Virus record (IMG/VR): IMGVR_UViG_3300042890_000202 | Coordinates: 1-30,565 of that record | Strand: one strand, 5' to 3' | Source: a virus | Length of the DNA: 30,565 nucleotides | Shown here: in pieces, positions 3,924 to 14,889 of the stretch | Layout: each line of letters begins with the position of its first letter | Numbering within the stretch: the first letter of the stretch is position 1 | The notes under the pieces: generated by a model | Seen by the model: the letters and a program-made list of their open reading frames with translations, nothing else | The model's database searches: none | Told to the model about the DNA's origin: nothing | Made by a program: the position numbers and the translations under genes

Positions 3924-6487
3924 AATAGTTGCGTTCTTTCCGCTACCACACTCCACGTTTCTGCGACCTCCGTACCTCCGTGGTGCTCAAGTTGCAAATA
4001 CGAAGCGAAGCCGTTAGCCGTTTGGATAGTTATTCGATACCTATCGCTCGTTACATTATGAAGCCCGTGGATTGTATCGCCTGCTGCTCCCCGTACTATC
4101 GTGTAGTCCGTCTGATAGGAATACGTCTCACAAGTGAAAGTGATTCTCACGATCTGGTGATCCCCCTCCGCAAGGTCAAACAAAGGCGTAGCGTAATTGT
4201 GCAATGCCACACACCGGAAGTTCGTAGCCTCTAAGTCCGAAGTCACGGTGTACCAATACATCGTGTTCGTAGGTCGTGAGGTATTGGTGCTGACATTAGC
4301 GATTGCTGATTTCTCCAGACCTACAAGCCCTGCGCTTTTTGACTTCACAAACTTACTCGTACGCCAGTAGCACTTATTGTCGCTCCACTTATACCCATAG
4401 AACTCGCAGCATTGCTGCGTAGGGCTGCCGCTAAAGCTCACGGTTCCATCATTATTCAAAGCCGATACGCTGCTCGCACAGATCGAGGAGTTCACAAACG
4501 AAGCCCGGAATAGCTCGACCCTTGCAGTCATCTTATCCAGATCGTAGCCGTTTATCTTATTGATCCTCCAGTAGTCCCCATCGTAGTAGATCTGATCGTT
4601 AAGGTTCAGCAGAAATAACTCCGCAGGCTCCAGCACTATCGATACCTCAAGCATCACCGCATCCGTAGCATATAGCTCCAAAAGATACGTGGCGTAGAAG
4701 TCAGTCAGTAGGTTATTCTTTGGAGGCTTGGTGCCTTCTAATTGTGGTATTCCGAATGTTGCGGTAAACGTGCCCCCGTAGTTTACGTTGAATACCGGAT
4801 ACTCGTTCTGGACTTGAAAACTTCCATCCGCACTACGGAAGATATAATAGTTCGATGTCCCATTAAGGCCATTGAAATATAGCAGCCTTGGTGGGGAGTC
4901 GATAGGCTTCCCCTCCGCATCGAACATCTGAATAACGTCAAACGTAGTATTTGAATTTATCCGATTGGTAATTGTCGCAGCAAAGGGAGCCTCGATTGTG
5001 ATCTCACCTTCCGCAAATTGATTGCCCGTGTCCTCGACCTCTACGCTGCCGTGGGGTATTCCAAAGGAGGATACGTAAGCGTTGTCGATAATAGCGTTGC
5101 CATTAGCCATTAGCATTTTTATGGTCTTGCCCTGCAGTTCCGTAGTGGGTTTTATCGTGATGGGTTGGCTTACATCCACGACCTCCTGCCAGTTCCTTAC
5201 TGCGCCCGATCCTATCCAAGCATCGTAAGCAAAAATGCTTATCATATTCGGGATCTCCTTACTCGGAACGAATACGAGGTTAAACATCTTAGCGATTCCA
5301 GCGATAAAGTCCTTCTGCTTCATCTTAGGCAAGAACATCGAAGGATCTACATCCGACCCCGTAGGGTAGTCCGGTGCGCTGATCACGGTTAATTGGCAAC
5401 TGGATGCAAGCGTACCCCCGGATTCAATCCCCCCTATCCGGAACGATACAAGATTGCTCGTGGTTAAGTCCCTAAAGAAATGCACGAAATCAATCGAGAA
5501 CGCACTCTCCGTTACGACATCCTTGCTCTGGATTGCAGTATTGCCCAAGTACATCGTAATTTGGTACATATAGTTTCCCGATGGCGAACTTATCACGCCC
5601 TGCACGTTAAACTTATACTCCCCGATAATAGGCACCTCATACCGCCAAGTGCTGGTATTATAGTTGTTCCCGTTGTCATAGACCTCCGTGTTAAATCGGA
5701 TTATGCTTGGTGCTATGGTCGTGAGTTCTGGGATTGACAAACTCGCACTCGAGTACACTTGAGCCAGCCTGCTATTAAAGGATGCCTCCAAAGGCACAAG
5801 CCCCTCTTTGTTATACCCGAGCAATAGCATATCCGTGAACTTAGCATTGTTGAAGATCCCGGTTGCTGCTTCTATCGTGTACCCTGCCTCCGCAAATATC
5901 TGTTCGAAGATAATCGTGGCTTTTATCGCTGGGTAAAAGTCCGTTTCACGAAGTGGGGTAAACGCCTGCTGCGGAGAGAATAGCGTATCGCTTGCAAAGA
6001 CCCTCGTATCTACCGGTACATATACTATATCCCCATCGAATAGATCTCCATTCCAACTGCCTACGATATTCTCGTAGTTGAAAATATGCATATATGATTC
6101 CAGATCCAGCTCACTTATTTCCTTTTCGCCTACGTTACGGGCGAACCTTGCGTTCTCCCCAGCGACCAGAACTTGGTACTGCTTCGCCATTGTGTTCTCC
6201 AGCGTTACATCGAGCAACTGAAGGTAGCCGCTGATCATAATAAGGTCATCGCTGTAAAGCGTTACGTCCTGCTTCGCATACGCATTAAACCCTCCGCTGA
6301 TACTTACATCGTAGTAATGCTTAAAGAACTGATTATTTACATCCGTTGCGGGAAGCGAGAAGCTCTTCGATATCGGGCTGAAGATAGCAGCAGGATCTCT
6401 GAGGTCAGCGAGGTTATAATCTACGCTGATACTTTCATCGCTGAATAGATCCAGATACCCCGTGGTGGTTTGCAGCGTTAGAGCCAT
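3920..6487 (-). CDS. Large tail-tip/baseplate structural protein, 855 aa
   Basis: N-terminal part (residues about 1-130) has the pattern LRDPAAIFSPISKSFSLPAT ... NNQFFKHYYDVSIS ... SGYLQLLDV, which I recognise from large tail proteins of Bacteroidota siphophages. The middle is beta-rich with a likely hub-like domain, and the C-terminal third carries a cysteine motif (QQCCEFYGYKWSDNKCYWR, about residues 668-690) followed by a beta domain. It probably builds the tail tip or adsorption device. Its start overlaps the stop of the 423-aa gene by 10 nt. Family membership is from pattern recognition only. Confidence 0.7.
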   Translation of the reverse strand: MALTLQTTTGYLDLFSDESISVDYNLADLRDPAAIFSPISKSFSLPATDVNNQFFKHYYDVSISGGFNAYAKQDVTLYSDDLIMISGYLQLLDVTLENTMAKQYQVLVAGENARFARNVGEKEISELDLESYMHIFNYENIVGSWNGDLFDGDIVYVPVDTRVFASDTLFSPQQAFTPLRETDFYPAIKATIIFEQIFAEAGYTIEAATGIFNNAKFTDMLLLGYNKEGLVPLEASFNSRLAQVYSSASLSIPELTTIAPSIIRFNTEVYDNGNNYNTSTWRYEVPIIGEYKFNVQGVISSPSGNYMYQITMYLGNTAIQSKDVVTESAFSIDFVHFFRDLTTSNLVSFRIGGIESGGTLASSCQLTVISAPDYPTGSDVDPSMFLPKMKQKDFIAGIAKMFNLVFVPSKEIPNMISIFAYDAWIGSGAVRNWQEVVDVSQPITIKPTTELQGKTIKMLMANGNAIIDNAYVSSFGIPHGSVEVEDTGNQFAEGEITIEAPFAATITNRINSNTTFDVIQMFDAEGKPIDSPPRLLYFNGLNGTSNYYIFRSADGSFQVQNEYPVFNVNYGGTFTATFGIPQLEGTKPPKNNLLTDFYATYLLELYATDAVMLEVSIVLEPAELFLLNLNDQIYYDGDYWRINKINGYDLDKMTARVELFRASFVNSSICASSVSALNNDGTVSFSGSPTQQCCEFYGYKWSDNKCYWRTSKFVKSKSAGLVGLEKSAIANVSTNTSRPTNTMYWYTVTSDLEATNFRCVALHNYATPLFDLAEGDHQIVRITFTCETYSYQTDYTIVRGAAGDTIHGLHNVTSDRYRITIQTANGFASYLQLEHHGGTEVAETWSVVAERTQLL

Positions 6488-8739: not shown

Positions 8740-9482
8740 TTATCGGGTATTCTGCCGAGCCACCTGCGCCTCAAGGCGTGACTTGTCAGCCTCGTACGTT
8801 ACCCACATCAAACATTGGTAAAGCGGTAGCTCCGTTATCTGGTCAAGGTTTTGTAGAGATCCTGCAGCAAGTTGATGGAGGATTGCATACCATCCCCATC
8901 GTTTACCGAAGGCAGTTCGGGAGTCGAGGATTTCCCTTGTTTCGCCACTTGCTTCAAATAAGTCAGCGAAGACATCTGCAGTCCGAGTTCTAAACGATAA
9001 AAAAAAAGCAGCGCACCCTGCACTACGTCCATCGTGATGGCCTCAAATGCTGATCCATCGTGCTTATCCGGATGGTATTTTTCTATCTCGTGCCTTCCGT
9101 ATGCCTCCTTAATCACGGGGCGGTATAGCACCCCCATCCACTTCTGAGCATTCTTGATAGGCTCCTTCATATACTCTTCAAGATCCACGAACTCCCCGAG
9201 CGATATGTCCTCCAGCTTAGGGTGGAATCCATACTTTACGCCATTGATATGCACGAAGCGATGTAAGGGTGGGTTCTCCGTGAATACCCCAGCGATTATT
9301 GTCTTGATATCCTCCAGCTCTTTTACCGGGAACGAGTCCTGCTCATCCTTATCGATGCCACAGAATATCGATAGAGCTAAGTCCTCAGCCGTTTCATCCG
9401 TGGGGTTAGCCCCCATAAACCTCTGGAAGTCCTTTAGGCTGAGGTCAGCCCAGATCGTGGGTACTTTTATTGTGCGAAGCAT
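8740..9482 (-). CDS. Tail assembly chaperone with -1 frameshift extension (215-aa short and 247-aa long forms)
   Basis: The zero frame from 9482 gives 215 aa ending at 8835 (LLQDLYKTLTR). It has chaperone-like features (FHPKLEDISLGEFVDLEEYM, KWMGVLYRPVIKE). The -1 frame is open across the last third and encodes RWGWYAILHQLAAG ... ITELPLYQCLMWVTYEADKS, the type of C-terminal domain made by frameshifting in tail chaperones (lambda G/GT type). That frame has no ATG, GTG or TTG before the WGWY segment, so it needs a shift. The run of nine T at 9007-8999, read CTT TTT TTT TAT, gives a T TTT TTT slip site. A shift there yields 161 + 86 = 247 aa, ending at 8740. The chaperone binds the tape measure during tail assembly. 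Confidence 0.85.
8999..9007 (-). promoter_or_regulatory. Probable -1 ribosomal frameshift site (T9 run)
   Basis: On the coding strand the sequence is GC followed by nine T and then ATCG. In the zero frame the codons are CTT TTT TTT TAT, so the P- and A-site phenylalanine codons can both re-pair after a -1 step. The -1 frame is open from about 20 codons upstream to the stop at 8742-8740. I did not find an obvious pseudoknot by eye. Confidence 0.7.
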
Positions 9483-10387
9483 TGCTGGCGTGTGTCGTTG
9501 ATATTGGTAATGTGGTAGAATTGTACATCCTCATAGAGCCTTTCCGCAAGGTCAGCGCATCTTTGAGGGTCGAGGTTCCGCAATTCCTCTTCCCAATGCC
9601 CCGGCCCTTTGCATAGGATTGCATTGCTCTTATTCAGAAACGGAGTATAAGGGTGCATATCCTGCGCTATTATGCACGTCTTAGTAAACCCAGCCTCGAT
9701 AGCCTTAAGGTTTGACTTGCATTTGTTAAAGGTGCTTGGTGAAAGTGGGGCGATACTGACGTGGATGTTCTTATATAGTTTACCATAGTCGGAGTAGTCA
9801 GCCCTCTCAAACGCATTAGAAGCCCTTAGCGACTCTTTATAGTACTCAATGGTATAAGCATTCAGCCCCTCTAAATTGATGCGGTTATACGCCAAGTCAT
9901 CATCGTGATGCAAGGCGCCCATATATCCTACGTTGAAGCCCTCTACCTTTTCTATGTTCTCCCATTGGGATCTGCGAGGGTCTATCGCATTCGGTAGAAC
10001 CCAGATAGGGATGTAAGGGTTTTCTTTTTGGATCTTGCTCGCAAGGAATTCGTTAGTCGTATGGACTTCATCCGCTATTTTAATAGTCATTAGGATGTCC
10101 TGCGTTTTCTGATTGCTATGGTTAGCGTGATGCCTTGGTAGCATCCACCAGTCATCTAAGTCAATTATCAGTTTGATATTGTTCTGATCCAGCATATACC
10201 GGAACGCCTTGTGATTCGTGGTACTCAGCCCTCGGTTGACAACGAGGTGCGTGATTGCACCCTTATACTTATCGAGTTCTTGGATGGTTCCAAACTTTAC
10301 CAAGTAGCCTCGCATAAGCAAGTCCTCGTATGGTATCTGGAGGCGGTGGTAGTAAACTCCACCCGGTTGTCCTGCTACGTATATCAT
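9467..10387 (-). CDS. GT4-like (GT-B fold) glycosyltransferase, 306 aa
   Basis: N-terminal region MIYVAGQPGGVYYHRLQIPY, then KLIIDLDDWWMLPRHHANHS, ADEVHTTNEFLASKI and IWVLPNAIDP, followed by NVGYMGALHHDDD and a C-terminal SNLKAIEAGFTKTCIIAQDM. This is the order of motifs of single-domain glycosyltransferases of the GT4 type, with the acidic KAIEAG segment near the sugar-nucleotide site. Its ATG overlaps the large terminase stop (ATGA) and its end overlaps the chaperone start by 16 nt, so it is co-translated with late morphogenesis genes. Targets could be virion proteins, modified DNA or host surface sugars; sequence does not decide. Confidence 0.75.
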   Translation of the reverse strand: MIYVAGQPGGVYYHRLQIPYEDLLMRGYLVKFGTIQELDKYKGAITHLVVNRGLSTTNHKAFRYMLDQNNIKLIIDLDDWWMLPRHHANHSNQKTQDILMTIKIADEVHTTNEFLASKIQKENPYIPIWVLPNAIDPRRSQWENIEKVEGFNVGYMGALHHDDDLAYNRINLEGLNAYTIEYYKESLRASNAFERADYSDYGKLYKNIHVSIAPLSPSTFNKCKSNLKAIEAGFTKTCIIAQDMHPYTPFLNKSNAILCKGPGHWEEELRNLDPQRCADLAERLYEDVQFYHITNINDTRQQCFAQ

Positions 10388-11541
10388 CTTACAGAGTATC
10401 TGCCAAAGTTAGGGTTATTTTTCTTGCTGAAAATAGCATACCTCGCAGCATCGATTGCGTGGTTAAAAGCATCGATTGGCTTATTAAGTAGGTTGCCGTT
10501 CTTATCCTCTGTCCATTTGTAGTTACGCATCTCCTTCTCCAGATTGATGCTCCGGGGAGTGATGAATAGCTTGTAGCGTTTCATTATATCGATTCCTGCG
10601 TTCACCGAATCCGGCCCCTTAGTCGTGGGCTTTACATTGTAGCCCCTGCGATATAGTTCCTCGATTGACTTAGGCTCTGCCGAGTCAGCATATACCTCAG
10701 TGCGCCTATCGATACCGATCGAGGTAAGGATGTTTGCGATATCGTTATTAGTCATCCCCGTGCGGTAAAGCAGTTCATCAAAGTAAAAGCTGCCATTTGA
10801 TTCATAGACTGCAACGAGAGCCGTAGGATCATTTGTGAACCCGAAGTCCATCCCATAGGATAGAAGCTTTGCATCTGTTGGGATCTCCGACTGCCCGTAC
10901 TGGAATATCGTAGCCCTACTCATACCACGTTCCCCCAGACCATAGATACGCCAGTAGTCATTGTCCGTATCCTTTAACCGGAGGATTTCATCCTTGATGC
11001 TCTGATCTAAAAACATATTGTCGAGGTAGGTCGTTTGAAAAAAGTCGCAGTCGTCTCTCGGTACGACCTTATCGTATATCCAGTGAAACGCATCCGAAGG
11101 ATTATAGTCAAGTATCGCCCGATCCTCTGTCCGCATTATCAACTGCTGCCAGTCCTCATACGTCAACTCATTGGCTTCGTTAATGTAAAGTAGGTTACGC
11201 TTGCGCCCTCTTATCTTCTGGGGTTGGTCGAGGCTTATGAACTCGACAAGGTTGCCATTGAGGTAGTACTCGCTATTCGATCTGTTATGGTAGATCTCAT
11301 TGTATAGATCGTGGTTCCGGAGGATTTCAAAGAAGTCCCTCATAACAGATGCCCGGAGCGCAGGGAACGTCTTACGGCAGATCGTGATGGTCTTGCCTTC
11401 GTTCTTATCCGTGTAATAGAATATGATCCATAGCAGGATGTTGTATGTCTTTCCGCTACGGGTACCTCCCTGCTCGACTACTATCTTTTTAGTGCTTCGC
11501 TTTAGGTGGCCATATACCTTATTGGTACTAATCTTCGCCAA
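10384..11541 (-). CDS. terL: Terminase large subunit, 385 aa
   Basis: ATP-driven DNA packaging motor and nuclease. Walker A is GGTRSGKT at residues 25-32, Walker B is LLYINEAN at 117-124, and the RNase H-like nuclease shows SYGMDFGFTNDPTALVAVY (Asp232), VYADSAEPK (Asp285) and DAFNHAIDAARYAI (Asp357/Asp363). At 385 aa it is short but complete, of the Terminase_3 type. It overlaps the small subunit by 14 nt. The circularly permuted window is what headful packaging would give, but the packaging mode is not shown by sequence alone. Confidence 0.95.
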   Translation of the reverse strand: MAKISTNKVYGHLKRSTKKIVVEQGGTRSGKTYNILLWIIFYYTDKNEGKTITICRKTFPALRASVMRDFFEILRNHDLYNEIYHNRSNSEYYLNGNLVEFISLDQPQKIRGRKRNLLYINEANELTYEDWQQLIMRTEDRAILDYNPSDAFHWIYDKVVPRDDCDFFQTTYLDNMFLDQSIKDEILRLKDTDNDYWRIYGLGERGMSRATIFQYGQSEIPTDAKLLSYGMDFGFTNDPTALVAVYESNGSFYFDELLYRTGMTNNDIANILTSIGIDRRTEVYADSAEPKSIEELYRRGYNVKPTTKGPDSVNAGIDIMKRYKLFITPRSINLEKEMRNYKWTEDKNGNLLNKPIDAFNHAIDAARYAIFSKKNNPNFGRYSVR

Positions 11542-11866
11542 GCACCTCTATCTGAAATAATTTCGGGGTCTGGATATCTACCTCTTGCCTCTCTATGTAT
11601 CCCCTCTTCTTGCCCTTGGTCTTTAGAAAAAAGATAGTAGCGGTGGAGTTGCCCTCCCTTATCTGCTTATGCAGTTGGCTCTCTGCGAAGTCTATCGCTA
11701 CGTCTGATAGTTCATCGACTGCTGCTTTGTAATCAGCATCCTCCTTCATCCACTCATAATGAGTCTGTCGGGCGATGCCCACGCTTTTACAAGCAGAAGT
11801 AACTACTCCCAGAGATTTCTCCAACGCATCAAGCATTGCCTTTTTATGGATGTCAGTTTTTGTCAT
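11528..11866 (-). CDS. terS: Terminase small subunit, 112 aa
   Basis: N-terminal helix-turn-helix of the phBC6A51 type: ALEKSLGVVTSACKSVGIAR followed by QTHYEWMKEDADYKAAVDEL, then an oligomerisation helix (DFAESQLHKQIREGNSTATI) and FFLKTKGKKRGYIERQE, a segment typical of small terminases. It recognises phage DNA and hands it to the large subunit encoded next. The start overlaps the stop of the upstream glycosyltransferase (ATGA). Confidence 0.9.
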   Translation of the reverse strand: MTKTDIHKKAMLDALEKSLGVVTSACKSVGIARQTHYEWMKEDADYKAAVDELSDVAIDFAESQLHKQIREGNSTATIFFLKTKGKKRGYIERQEVDIQTPKLFQIEVLGED

Positions 11867-12603
11867 ACCCCTTTATTTGGAACTTTTATAATAGGATTGA
11901 AATCAAAGGATCTCTTGCTTCCCTTATCCCTTGTAATAATATCCTTCCCCCATTTATTTTGTAAGAGAAAAAATTGTTCCTTTTCCCTCTTCAGATTTCG
12001 GTATGTAGCGCATCCTCCAGTCTGGGATGCTTGCTTTACCTCATAGTGGGCATAGTTGATCCGTAAGCATCCTCCGTGAGTTCTAATATGCTCTAATGAA
12101 ATATCATAGTCTTCCTTTAGTGGAAGATTTTCATCGTATCGGATCTTGCTCGTACTGAGGTGCGCTTGAAACGGCCCACCGATATACTGGATTGTGCCAA
12201 ATGGCGTGTACTCACGATAAGCACCCTTGTCCGTTACGCAATTCAATCCCCAGAAGTGGAATCCAAAGTCCGCACACAGAAGAGCAGCGGACTCGCAGAA
12301 CTCTTCTAATTCCTGTGGGTTGAACTTTATATTGGTCTGTTCCTCCCACCGTCCTATGTAAGAGCAGTCATCGTCCAAGATTACAATGCAGTCAGCATCC
12401 TCATATAGGTTATCCAAGATCCAGTTGCATACACGAGAGATATTCCCTTGTGCCGAGTCTGGACATACCACGATGTTATTGCCGTTCTTTTGATATTCCT
12501 CCGCTTCCGACTCCCGGACTACGAGAGTGACATTCGGATAGGTGATCTGTGTAATTGACTTTTGAGGTCTTTTATACGAAGGGGCAAAGAATTTAATTTT
12601 CAC
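11863..12603 (-). CDS. GT-A glycosyltransferase resembling TET-associated glycosyltransferases, 246 aa
   Basis: Begins MKIKFFAPSYKRPQKSITQI, followed by VVRESEAEEY, DSAQGNISRVCNWILDN and the metal-binding ILDDDCSYIG (Asp77-79), then YIGGPFQAHL, LPLKEDYDISLEHI and GGCATYRNLKREKEQF. This matches my recollection of the phage family called TAGT, which in some phages adds sugars to oxidised 5-methylcytosine in DNA. No TET/JBP dioxygenase is present here, so the acceptor is open. It lies between the ParB-like gene (11-nt overlap) and the small terminase (ATGA), in a cluster with a C5-methyltransferase. Confidence 0.7.
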   Translation of the reverse strand: MKIKFFAPSYKRPQKSITQITYPNVTLVVRESEAEEYQKNGNNIVVCPDSAQGNISRVCNWILDNLYEDADCIVILDDDCSYIGRWEEQTNIKFNPQELEEFCESAALLCADFGFHFWGLNCVTDKGAYREYTPFGTIQYIGGPFQAHLSTSKIRYDENLPLKEDYDISLEHIRTHGGCLRINYAHYEVKQASQTGGCATYRNLKREKEQFFLLQNKWGKDIITRDKGSKRSFDFNPIIKVPNKGV

Positions 12604-13204
12604 CTTGAATCCGCTTGATTGCTTCTACCCCATCAATTACACGGCCGATGCCGATAGACCAAGCCTTGCCGTTTGCCCTCTTCGATGCAACGCTCTCCAA
12701 TTCAAAGATGGTCTTCGCTTGAATCCAGTCTATGTCCGTATTGAATTTTAGCACCAAGTAGTTGGACTCTGAATCCAGTTCCAAAGAAAATGGTTTCTCT
12801 GAGTTATCATTTACCGGATTGCCCATCTCTTCGATTTCATCTTCCGTGTAGGGTACATCCATTCCCCACTCGCTTAAAAGCTCCATATCCCATTGGTTCG
12901 CTAACTGATCCCAATCCCATTCGCCAAAGCCTACGTTATCCTTAATGATAAACTCATTCTTTTGGATATCAGTCAGTTGGTCTGCTATGATAATCGGCAC
13001 CTCTTTAAGCCCTGCAGCAATGCAAGCTCTTAATCGCATATTGCCTCCAAGCACGACCATATTGCTATCGACTACGATAGGCCTTAGCTCAAGCATCTGG
13101 GGAAAGTCCTCGATAGACTTTACAAGCTTCTTAAACTTATAGTCTTTTATTATTCTCGGGTTACTGGGGTTTGGTAGTATTGTACCGATTGCTGCTCTTT
13201 GCAT
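12593..13204 (-). CDS. ParB/Sulfiredoxin-fold nuclease-like protein, 203 aa
   Basis: ParB N-terminal fold: IGTILPNPSNPRIIKDYKFK, VKSIEDFPQMLELRPIVVDS, then VVLGGNMRLRACIAAGLKEV with the GGNMR box at residues 53-57, and TDIQKNEFIIKDNVGFGEWD. Phage proteins of this type are usually DNA-binding or NTP-using enzymes linked to methyltransferases and terminases rather than partition proteins. The C-terminal 80 residues (EKPFSLELDSESNYLVLKFN ... IGIGRVIDG) form a separate domain. It starts 2 nt after the HNH gene and overlaps the next glycosyltransferase. Confidence 0.8.
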   Translation of the reverse strand: MQRAAIGTILPNPSNPRIIKDYKFKKLVKSIEDFPQMLELRPIVVDSNMVVLGGNMRLRACIAAGLKEVPIIIADQLTDIQKNEFIIKDNVGFGEWDWDQLANQWDMELLSEWGMDVPYTEDEIEEMGNPVNDNSEKPFSLELDSESNYLVLKFNTDIDWIQAKTIFELESVASKRANGKAWSIGIGRVIDGVEAIKRIQGEN

Positions 13205-13206
13205 AT

Positions 13207-13491
13207 CTAAATAACTCTTTTTGATAGGTGATGGTTGTGAACCTCGTAAAGGTAGTCCTTCTTTAGATTAGTTCCGAAGTCAGCCTCGTGGTGGCAAGTC
13301 CTGCATAATGCCATAAGGTTTTCGATATTATCCCGGATCTTGCTCCCTCCCATTCCTCGGGGTTCTATATGGTGGATGTCTATCGCTTGGGAACCGCATA
13401 CCTCGCAGGGGATGAAGTCAGTAGTGGCATATCCCATCCCTTTGAGATAGACCTTCGTATGTTTTTTCAAGCCAAAGCATTGTAGTAACAA
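13207..13491 (-). CDS. HNH endonuclease, 94 aa
   Basis: Zinc ribbon CEVC, the catalytic DIHHIEPRGMGG and the second half NLMALCRTCHHEADFG give a full HNH fold. Small HNH proteins near terminases often help headful packaging by nicking DNA at the motor; a free-standing mobile nuclease is the alternative. I keep the ATG at 13491, which overlaps the upstream gene by 25 nt; an internal ATG (MGYATTDFIP) would still keep the whole domain. Confidence 0.85.
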   Translation of the reverse strand: MLLQCFGLKKHTKVYLKGMGYATTDFIPCEVCGSQAIDIHHIEPRGMGGSKIRDNIENLMALCRTCHHEADFGTNLKKDYLYEVHNHHLSKRVI

Positions 13492-13994
13492 AGGGGCTGA
13501 TCTACGCAGATAAGCGATCCCTGCCTTGCGGCTTCGCCTGCAAAAATGCCATCGGCCTCGTAGCTTGTTTCAAAGCGGAGGTCTGGAAGGTCATAAGGTT
13601 TGAACATATAGCAGGCCGTATCTATGTTCCCGACTCGGGGTTGGTCGGTAGGGCGTAGCCTTCCCACCTGTCCCCACGTTACGATTGAGCAATCGAGGGA
13701 ATTTAGATTGTTCCATTCCTCTATGAATTTTGGATGTAGGATGTTGTCATCGTCCAGATAGTACACCCAATCCTCTTTCGTGAAGGACTCCCTATGTAAT
13801 TCAAGGAACTCATTGCGTAAAGGGTGTCCCCAAGATCCAGAACGGGTAGAGTAGTGGGTTATGGATGCGCCTGTTGCTCCCTTGAAGTCGGTAGCAGCAT
13901 CCATCATCACTACCCACGTTGCGTACTCTGGGATGCATCGCCTTATCCTCACAAGGTTTTGAGGCCTTGAGCAGGGAGTTACGATATAGAGCAC
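13467..13994 (-). CDS. GT-A (GT2-like) glycosyltransferase, 175 aa
   Basis: Short nucleotide-sugar transferase: LYIVTPCSRPQNLVRIRRCI at the N-terminus, then VYYLDDDNILHPKFIEEW with the metal-binding DDD at residues 81-83, and ETSYEADGIFAGEAARQG near the C-terminus. I chose the GTG at 13994-13992, which places LYIVTPCSRP at the start as expected for the fold; an in-frame ATG at 14018 is possible but overlaps the methyltransferase by 40 nt. It is the second of three glycosyltransferases in the genome and sits directly after the C5-methyltransferase. Confidence 0.75.
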   Translation of the reverse strand: MLYIVTPCSRPQNLVRIRRCIPEYATWVVMMDAATDFKGATGASITHYSTRSGSWGHPLRNEFLELHRESFTKEDWVYYLDDDNILHPKFIEEWNNLNSLDCSIVTWGQVGRLRPTDQPRVGNIDTACYMFKPYDLPDLRFETSYEADGIFAGEAARQGSLICVDQPLCYYNALA

Positions 13995-14743
13995 TTGCGC
14001 TCCAGATACTTTACCCACATCCGAGCAGCTACTGCCCTGCGTTGGGGTTTGAACGGGTAGGTGCTACGGAGCTGCGCCATAGCAATCCTCATAAATTGAT
14101 CTTGCATTTTATTTGTTATTAAATGTTTCGTTGTTGACTTTAATAATTCTAAACATAATTCATTTGGAATTTTGCTTCTTTCGTAATCTCCTTTTAATCC
14201 TTGGGTTCCGGTGCGACTACCTCTTGGTGCGCTTACGTGGCAAGGGTCACCATTTTTACACATAGGTTTTGGTTTCCAATATGGATTGTTTGTCCAGATG
14301 TCTGTTGGCTTCATCCTTTCATCCCCATATTGACAATAAGTTACGGTATGACGTATAGGCAAGGATTGCATAAAAGGCATCTTTCTTAACATACCTCGTG
14401 GATTTTCAATAAACCAATACTTAGGCTTGAGTTCTTTTATTATTTCAAGTGTGCGCAATACAAGTTGTTGTCCAAGTATAGCAGATTCGGTTTTCGGAAT
14501 ATACGCACCAGCTCCACCAGTCCAATGGTGACCAATGGATGCAACGCTAAAGCTGGTACAAGGCGGTGAAGCCCATATTATATCCGGACTAAATGGTATT
14601 TTTCTTATATCAAAATCTAAAATGTTTACGATGTAATTTATATTATCGAAGTTATTTATGTCTGAAGAAAAAACTTGCATCCCAAGTTCTTCGCTTGCTT
14701 TTCCGATTGATCGACTTCCGGCAAATAATTCTAAAACTCTCAT
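13979..14743 (-). CDS. Orphan C5-cytosine DNA methyltransferase, 254 aa
   Basis: Starts MRVLELFAGSRSIGKASEEL (AdoMet-binding motif I), has the catalytic ASPPCTSFSVAS with PPC at residues 60-62 and the IENPRGMLRK motif at 112-121, then YCQYGDERMKPTDIW and PRGSRTGTQGLKG. No restriction partner is seen, so it probably protects or marks phage DNA. The start at 14743 overlaps the small upstream gene as ATGA; a longer frame to 14872 is the shadow of that gene. The body (about 14110-14743) is clearly richer in A/T than its neighbours, while the last 42 residues (from MQDQFMRIAM) return to the usual composition, suggesting insertion and fusion to an older small gene. Confidence 0.88.
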   Translation of the reverse strand: MRVLELFAGSRSIGKASEELGMQVFSSDINNFDNINYIVNILDFDIRKIPFSPDIIWASPPCTSFSVASIGHHWTGGAGAYIPKTESAILGQQLVLRTLEIIKELKPKYWFIENPRGMLRKMPFMQSLPIRHTVTYCQYGDERMKPTDIWTNNPYWKPKPMCKNGDPCHVSAPRGSRTGTQGLKGDYERSKIPNELCLELLKSTTKHLITNKMQDQFMRIAMAQLRSTYPFKPQRRAVAARMWVKYLERKCSIS

Positions 14744-14889
14744 TTGTTTTGCCAATAGTATTCGCACTTCCCGTTCTTGATAGGTACTCCAAAGAAAAAC
14801 GACTGATACATCTCCCGAGGGGCGGTGTAGCGATAGCACGTTTCTTTTAATGGGCAGCCTTCGCCTGTGCATTTAGTGATGTCGGTCAT
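14740..14889 (-). CDS. Small cysteine protein, 49 aa
   Basis: MTDITKCTGEGCPLKETCYR then a C-terminal GVPIKNGKCEYYWQNK. The C-x4-C-x5-C plus GKCEYYW pattern is one I recognise as a widespread phage mini-protein and suggests metal binding. It is framed by ATGA overlaps on both sides (stop of the nuclease gene at 14886, start of the methyltransferase at 14743), which is strong evidence that it is translated. Function unknown. Confidence 0.75.
   Translation of the reverse strand: MTDITKCTGEGCPLKETCYRYTAPREMYQSFFFGVPIKNGKCEYYWQNK

Follow-up and report, generated by a model that had tools for sequence, protein, structure and literature searches.

A ParB-like protein and a TAGT-family glycosyltransferase form a conserved gene pair at phage terminase genes and may constitute a DNA glycosylation module

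The viral record IMGVR_UViG_3300042890_000202 of IMG/VR (30,565 nt, analysed at its full length and referred to here as the window) carries, next to its terminase genes, a gene for a TAGT-family GT-A glycosyltransferase and, just upstream of it, a gene for a ParB-like protein. An earlier note on this DNA had described five consecutive genes as a possible DNA-modification cluster, and this layout was recovered: on the minus strand, the order runs C5-cytosine methyltransferase, small glycosyltransferase-like protein, HNH protein, ParB-like protein and TAGT, followed by the terminase small subunit (TerS) and the terminase large subunit (TerL). The methyltransferase, HNH and ParB-like calls of that note all scored over their Pfam cut-offs (Table 1). 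Both contig ends share the 8 bp GATGAAGT, and the major capsid protein gene, which is split across these ends, was restored in frame once the shared 8 bp were collapsed. Since the ends collapse in frame and the joined capsid protein (310 residues) aligned end to end with its relatives (identity up to 70%), the window represents one full, circularly permuted genome. A fragment artefact was ruled out, as the genome closes on itself.

The resemblance of the 11863–12603 product to the TAGT family, which was reportedly named in a 2013 survey by Iyer and colleagues, was borne out by a hidden Markov model check, in which PF20691 scored 42.8 bits against a curated cut-off of 27.5. The product also matched phrog_842, annotated as beta-glucosyl-HMC-alpha-glucosyltransferase (6.8e-16). 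Its AlphaFold2 model (predicted local distance difference test score 93.9) revealed a GT-A fold, and the DDD metal motif at residues 77–79 is invariant throughout the family. The nearest viral folds were TAGT-domain proteins (template modelling (TM) scores of 0.75–0.85), including a Klebsiella phage beta-glucosyl-HMC-alpha-glucosyltransferase; the neighbours among PDB structures were cell-wall and protein glycosyltransferases with a TM of only about 0.5, corresponding to generic GT-A folds. Because no solved TAGT structure was found by sequence and only such generic folds were at hand, the acceptor site has no template. These data identify the enzyme as a genuine member of the TAGT family, with the transfer of a sugar to DNA as its predicted activity.

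TAGT identity averaged 75% in pairwise comparisons versus 51% for TerL, and the identity patterns of the two proteins were nearly unrelated (Spearman 0.22, compared to 0.83 between TerS and TerL). Recent spread as the source of the TAGT similarity was ruled out by the saturation of synonymous sites. Given this saturation and a nonsynonymous divergence of TAGT (0.08–0.26) below that of TerL (0.21–0.35), the conservation of the enzyme is attributed to long-term purifying selection together with exchange between phages.

In the window, the ParB-like and TAGT frames overlap by 11 nt, and an overlap of either 11 or 4 nt was present in 65 of 77 loci. An IMG/VR scan with the TAGT protein yielded 143 relatives, of which the best 80 were fetched (labels such as L002 or L253 denote fetched stretches of sequence). 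Mapping of the window genes onto these 80 revealed ParB-TAGT-TerS-TerL as the constant block. The ParB-like protein itself combines a ParB_N domain with a C-terminal domain (CTD) of 65 residues, the latter with the motif F..E.....NYvvLkF..DIDWiqAkT...L.....R.NGK.WS.GiGRV..G. Its AlphaFold2 model matched CTP-bound ParB N-domains over roughly residues 1–100 (Foldseek to 7bnr, E 3e-6), with the PDB fold match stopping near residue 100 and Pfam giving no domain besides ParB_N. The CTD is more conserved than the ParB_N domain. PADLOC matched the ParB-like protein only to the ParB_N part of a methyltransferase model, and returned no match for the TAGT.

Four overlapping scans placed the CTD directly upstream of the TAGT in 76/81, 9/9, 58/61 and 73/79 loci. 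Apart from L253, the other loci either were cut off by the end of a contig or had one gene inserted. L253 holds the only TAGT (L253:347-1093) with upstream sequence at hand (346 nt) yet no recognisable CTD; every other TAGT locus with enough upstream sequence had it. A reverse search by CTD alone, for which a subset of CTD sequences was used as the wider alignment was too diverse to scan with, found a TAGT adjoining or one gene away in all 80 fetched loci. No CTD outside a TAGT locus was thus seen among these 80, although scans that rank by similarity may have passed over remote exceptions. Rhodococcus phage Dorin gave a weak CTD match (E 0.8) that lay in an unrelated neighbourhood and was dropped. 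The bond between CTD and TAGT is therefore nearly exclusive. Moreover, across 149 non-redundant neighbourhoods the only recurring genes were those for ParB, TAGT and terminases of several unrelated families, the TerL beside the pair falling into several unrelated clusters with identity down to 26%.

The two parts of the ParB-like protein also differed in their relation to the enzyme. Over 144 non-redundant pairs, CTD divergence tracked that of TAGT (partial Spearman 0.31) while ParB_N divergence did not (–0.02), with a bootstrap interval of 0.17–0.33 for the difference between both correlations. ParB N domains have thus been exchanged, whereas each CTD has remained with its TAGT.

The conserved unit, then, is the TAGT with the ParB-like protein just upstream of it, and the C5-methyltransferase, the second glycosyltransferase and the HNH protein are optional. 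The earlier note had treated all five genes as a cluster, but these three occurred in a minority of relatives only. Specifically, PF00145 was found in 2/18 TAGT-bearing records and in 0/48 further ones, and the methyltransferase family in about 4/149 non-redundant neighbourhoods; methyltransferases related to that of the window lie near the pair in L115, L025, L049 and L341. This rarity ruled out the methyltransferase and TAGT as a unit. The DNA-modification role proposed in the note stands as the likeliest one, with ParB rather than the methyltransferase as the invariant partner. A methyltransferase plus TAGT without TET is therefore a local combination; what recurs in general, likewise without TET, is a ParB-CTD protein with a TAGT beside the terminase genes.

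Table 1. Features of the window and of the ParB-TAGT locus
Feature	Position	Strand	Evidence and remarks
Window	1-30565		Complete circularly permuted genome, ~30.56 kb; major capsid gene spans joined ends
Third glycosyltransferase, directly downstream of TerL	9467..10387	-	phrog_7162 8.6e-38; possible accessory
Terminase large subunit (TerL)	10384..11541	-	PF04466 80.7 bits, PF17288 72.3 bits
Terminase small subunit (TerS)	11528..11866	-	phrog_309 1.1e-9
TAGT-family GT-A glycosyltransferase, 246 aa, GTG start	11863..12603	-	Core component; PF20691, phrog_842
ParB-like protein, 203 aa	12593..13204	-	Core component; PF02195 27.1 bits (cut-off 26.3)
Conserved CTD of ParB-like protein	12596..12802	-	Proposed TAGT-docking domain
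ParB_N domain (CTP-binding fold) of ParB-like protein	12941..13198	-	Pfam residues 3-88
HNH endonuclease-type protein	13207..13491	-	PF01844 34.2 bits; accessory, in minority of loci
Small glycosyltransferase-like protein with DDD motif	13467..14018	-	Accessory; Glyco_tranf_2_3 E 0.008, below cut-off
C5-cytosine methyltransferase, short SPPC type	13979..14743	-	Accessory, optional; PF00145 39.2 bits (cut-off 22)

Regarding the accessory genes, the window methyltransferase matched phrog_757 (6e-37) and is best read from position 14743. Since its relatives are only about 204–209 residues long, its last ~50 residues are an extension overlapping the next gene. It carries the SPPC motif (ASPPC, residues 58–62) that is a criterion for candidate CmoX carboxymethyltransferases, together with an invariant R189 in a motif-X-like RSKIP segment that could not be aligned to R350, the residue of SpCmoX that binds the carboxymethyl group; a PDB-based comparison with CmoX likewise returned nothing. 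Its donor may be SAM or carboxy-SAM. Between this gene and an exonuclease gene lies a small Cys-containing open reading frame (MTDITKCTGEGCPLKETCYRYTAP..., 14743–14886) without Pfam match. Of the two GT-A glycosyltransferases originally called, the TAGT was upheld and the second (13467–14018) is weakly supported (E 0.008). Relatives of the latter, ranging from near-identical to 72%, were confined to L002–L007, and no match was found among 50,697 phage records.

Other genes were inserted within the pair itself. In 46 loci a gene lies between ParB and TAGT, and in 32 of these it is a second TAGT, which is divergent and about 238 residues long (L288:1845-2561, L308:4197-4907, L310:4197-4910 and ~30 others), suggesting a two-step sugar addition. 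Most other insertions encode a class I S-adenosylmethionine-dependent or FkbM-type methyltransferase, as in L050:9324-10001, L165:3254-3919 and L331:4195-4755, where the inserted frame overlaps start or stop codons of ParB or TAGT; sugar O-methylation is a possible function. Inserted second TAGTs and methyltransferases fit the expectation for enzymes by which a sugar is extended or capped, and di-glycosylated bases are known in T6, as is arabinobiose in Mosigvirus (PMC13390438).

The enzymes that would prepare a base for glycosylation were searched for in the same genomes. No TET/JBP protein was found in the window genome or in any of 18 module-bearing records at E<=10, nor in 50 further records at E<=0.01, and no thymidylate-synthase-superfamily hydroxymethylase scored over cut-off in the 18 records, nor was one found in the window genome. 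Because the genome is complete, these negative results apply to all of its 30.56 kb, which extends to the whole genome the earlier observation that the window lacks both enzymes. The TET of Mycobacterium phage Nigel served as positive control (4.2e-8), run apart from the scan of the 50 records, whereas cyanophage PSS2, tried as a control before it, gave no match; the search that recovers the Nigel TET detected none in the phages Javan291, Metamorphoo and Gingerbug. A hidden oxygenase was likewise sought in Pfam scans of 20 further window proteins and not found, the larger unannotated proteins resembling factors of replication or recombination, a PD-(D/E)XK nuclease among them.

The pair is widely distributed. 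It was found at terminase genes in phages of Bacteroidota, Firmicutes, Spirochaetes, Planctomycetes, Verrucomicrobia and Lentisphaerae, and in bacterial genomes of Bacteroides, Chitinophagaceae, Lentisphaerae, Phycisphaerae, Phascolarctobacterium, Treponema, Victivallaceae and Roseibacillus. Streptococcus phage Javan291 carries it as well. A divergent version, in which the ParB gene overlaps that of a TAGT-like enzyme (80.6 bits), is present in 56 records of cultured Microbacterium phages. In one of these, Metamorphoo (MH271304, L349), ParB, the TAGT-like glycosyltransferase and a UDP-glucose dehydrogenase are consecutive (3941–6137), not adjoining a terminase within the stretch read; the CTD match of Metamorphoovirus was weak (15 bits). 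In phage Gingerbug, a ParB lies beside a PF20691 protein, and its CTD match was not significant.

Taken together, we propose that the pair is a ParB-delivered two-gene module by which TAGT puts a sugar on phage DNA, a reading to which we assign a probability of roughly 60%. In this model, the CTP-binding N domain would let the ParB-like protein load on phage DNA or slide along it, and the CTD would dock the TAGT, as the obligate pairing and co-divergence suggest. The TAGT would then use a nucleotide-sugar donor to glycosylate the DNA, late in infection and shortly before packaging; both the substrate and the timing are surmised from family, partner and gene position. Packaged genomes might thereby resist host nucleases or be marked for packaging. 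Where present, a second TAGT or other glycosyltransferases may extend the sugar, which methyltransferases of the FkbM type and class I may then cap, while the UDP-glucose dehydrogenase may alter the donor. Since neither TET nor a nucleotide hydroxymethylase appears to be used, the acceptor would be either a position on a canonical base or a hydroxyl group introduced by a host enzyme or by one that escaped recognition. The first option, in which the pair sugars a canonical base directly, without prior hydroxylation or hydroxymethylation, and ParB acts as a CTP-dependent clamp carrying the enzyme along the DNA or to chosen sites, is put forward tentatively and is rather doubtful.

Several observations weigh against this proposal. 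No acceptor-making enzyme was found for the TAGT, and to our knowledge every characterised TAGT-type DNA enzyme requires a hydroxyl-bearing base. The model of the ParB-like protein is of moderate global confidence (predicted TM score 0.58), and structure comparison with this model revealed no solved relative of the CTD. Genetic linkage may contribute to the co-divergence of CTD and TAGT, since the CTD is the part of ParB encoded nearest TAGT. DNA is the likeliest TAGT substrate because the ParB_N partner is common to DNA enzymes of differing chemistry, a preference drawn from family and partner only, and the terminase position could reflect glycosylation of a packaging protein.

This last point leads to the main rival, according to which the pair puts its sugar not on DNA but on a protein, such as a subunit of the terminase, portal or capsid or the ParB-like protein, or on some other molecule, with ParB as scaffold or regulator. 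Proteins and glycans are common acceptors of GT-A enzymes, the genes abut TerS and TerL of several unrelated families, the genomes make no acceptor base, and the PDB neighbours of the TAGT model, distant as they are, are cell-wall and protein glycosyltransferases. However, the closest folds and profile relatives of the enzyme are phage TAGTs, a DNA enzyme included, and its ParB_N partner otherwise goes with DNA methyltransferases and TET. Moreover, the adjoining terminases are too diverse, beside so conserved an enzyme, to be its one shared specific acceptor. We therefore consider a protein acceptor unlikely.

Another explanation, close to that of the earlier note, starts from the C5-methyltransferase. 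The product of this enzyme, 5-methylcytosine (5mC), has no hydroxyl group and would have to be converted to 5-hydroxymethylcytosine (5hmC) by an oxygenase, either of the host or not recognised as such, before TAGT and the second glycosyltransferase could add sugars. All parts but the oxygenase are adjacent in the window genome and its closest relatives, and the four further loci with a related methyltransferase near the pair fit as well. Most module-bearing genomes nevertheless lack that methyltransferase, and the complete window genome revealed no oxygenase by Pfam in the proteins scanned, making this route quite improbable. Finally, modification of a host surface polysaccharide, for superinfection exclusion or serotype conversion, is scarcely credible: phages and prophages frequently carry such enzymes and the third glycosyltransferase nearby falls in the PHROG category 'moron', but no polysaccharide-type neighbour was noted in the 149 neighbourhoods, and the obligate ParB partner, the terminase position and a fold nearest TAGT rather than surface enzymes all argue otherwise.

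It is thus probable that the ParB-TAGT pair serves to mark phage DNA or to protect it, in a way not described before, and comparison with known systems sets it apart. Among the nearest systems is the beta-glucosyl-HMC-alpha-glucosyltransferase Ggt of T2 and T6. T6 Ggt is a DNA glucosyltransferase (PMC13216743, PMC13390438) that scored 38.8 bits against the family profile, shares the DDD, YRE, ED and GGCxxxR motifs and the GT-A fold of the window TAGT, and adds a second glucose to glucosylated hydroxymethylcytosine in DNA. T6, however, makes 5-hydroxymethyl-dCMP, on which an alpha-glucosyltransferase places the first glucose, whereas the window genome has neither hydroxymethylase nor first glucosyltransferase. 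Conversely, ParB is an obligate partner of the module TAGT and no neighbour of Ggt. The TET/JBP-associated phage pathways (C5-methyltransferase, TET and TAGT) have the TAGT family in common with the module, in which no genome tested has a TET and the methyltransferase is optional. Judged on these likenesses, the module belongs to the TAGT family but falls outside both the TET-TAGT and the T-even pathways.

The ParB partner has parallels of its own. In Nigel (EU770221; L352, 1–4129), gp1 is ParB-like (21.7 bits), gp2 a TET/JBP protein, gp3 a P-loop nucleotide kinase 3 (PF18751) and gp4 the terminase, so that ParB-TET-kinase-terminase occupies the same slot as ParB-TAGT-terminase with another enzyme. 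Phage NatCom_991 has the same ParB_N family fused to an N6/N4 DNA methyltransferase, and the CmoX DNA carboxymethyltransferases have ParBc neighbours (PMC12783734). All these cases place one ParB_N family beside a DNA-modifying enzyme; the module differs in that its ParB stands as a protein of its own, bearing a dedicated CTD, and its enzyme is a glycosyltransferase. This might in turn indicate a general rule, in which phage enzymes that modify DNA by several different chemistries have ParB-like proteins as their delivery subunits. Direct addition of a sugar to a canonical base, if true, would represent new chemistry together with a new delivery mode, spread across the phages of many bacterial phyla.

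A 2026 survey reported solitary TAGTs in 288 of 753 phages, more than a third of those bearing glycosyltransferases, and left their function open (PMC13216743). Like these, the module TAGT comes without an alpha- or beta-glucosyltransferase, but ParB is not mentioned in that survey. The TAGTs of the clade examined here are not solitary, as they have a fixed ParB partner. One large clade of such enzymes is thereby given this partner with its dedicated domain, recurring sugar-tailoring neighbours and a position at the packaging genes, and the cultured Microbacterium phages provide a laboratory model in which the question of the solitary TAGTs is directly testable.

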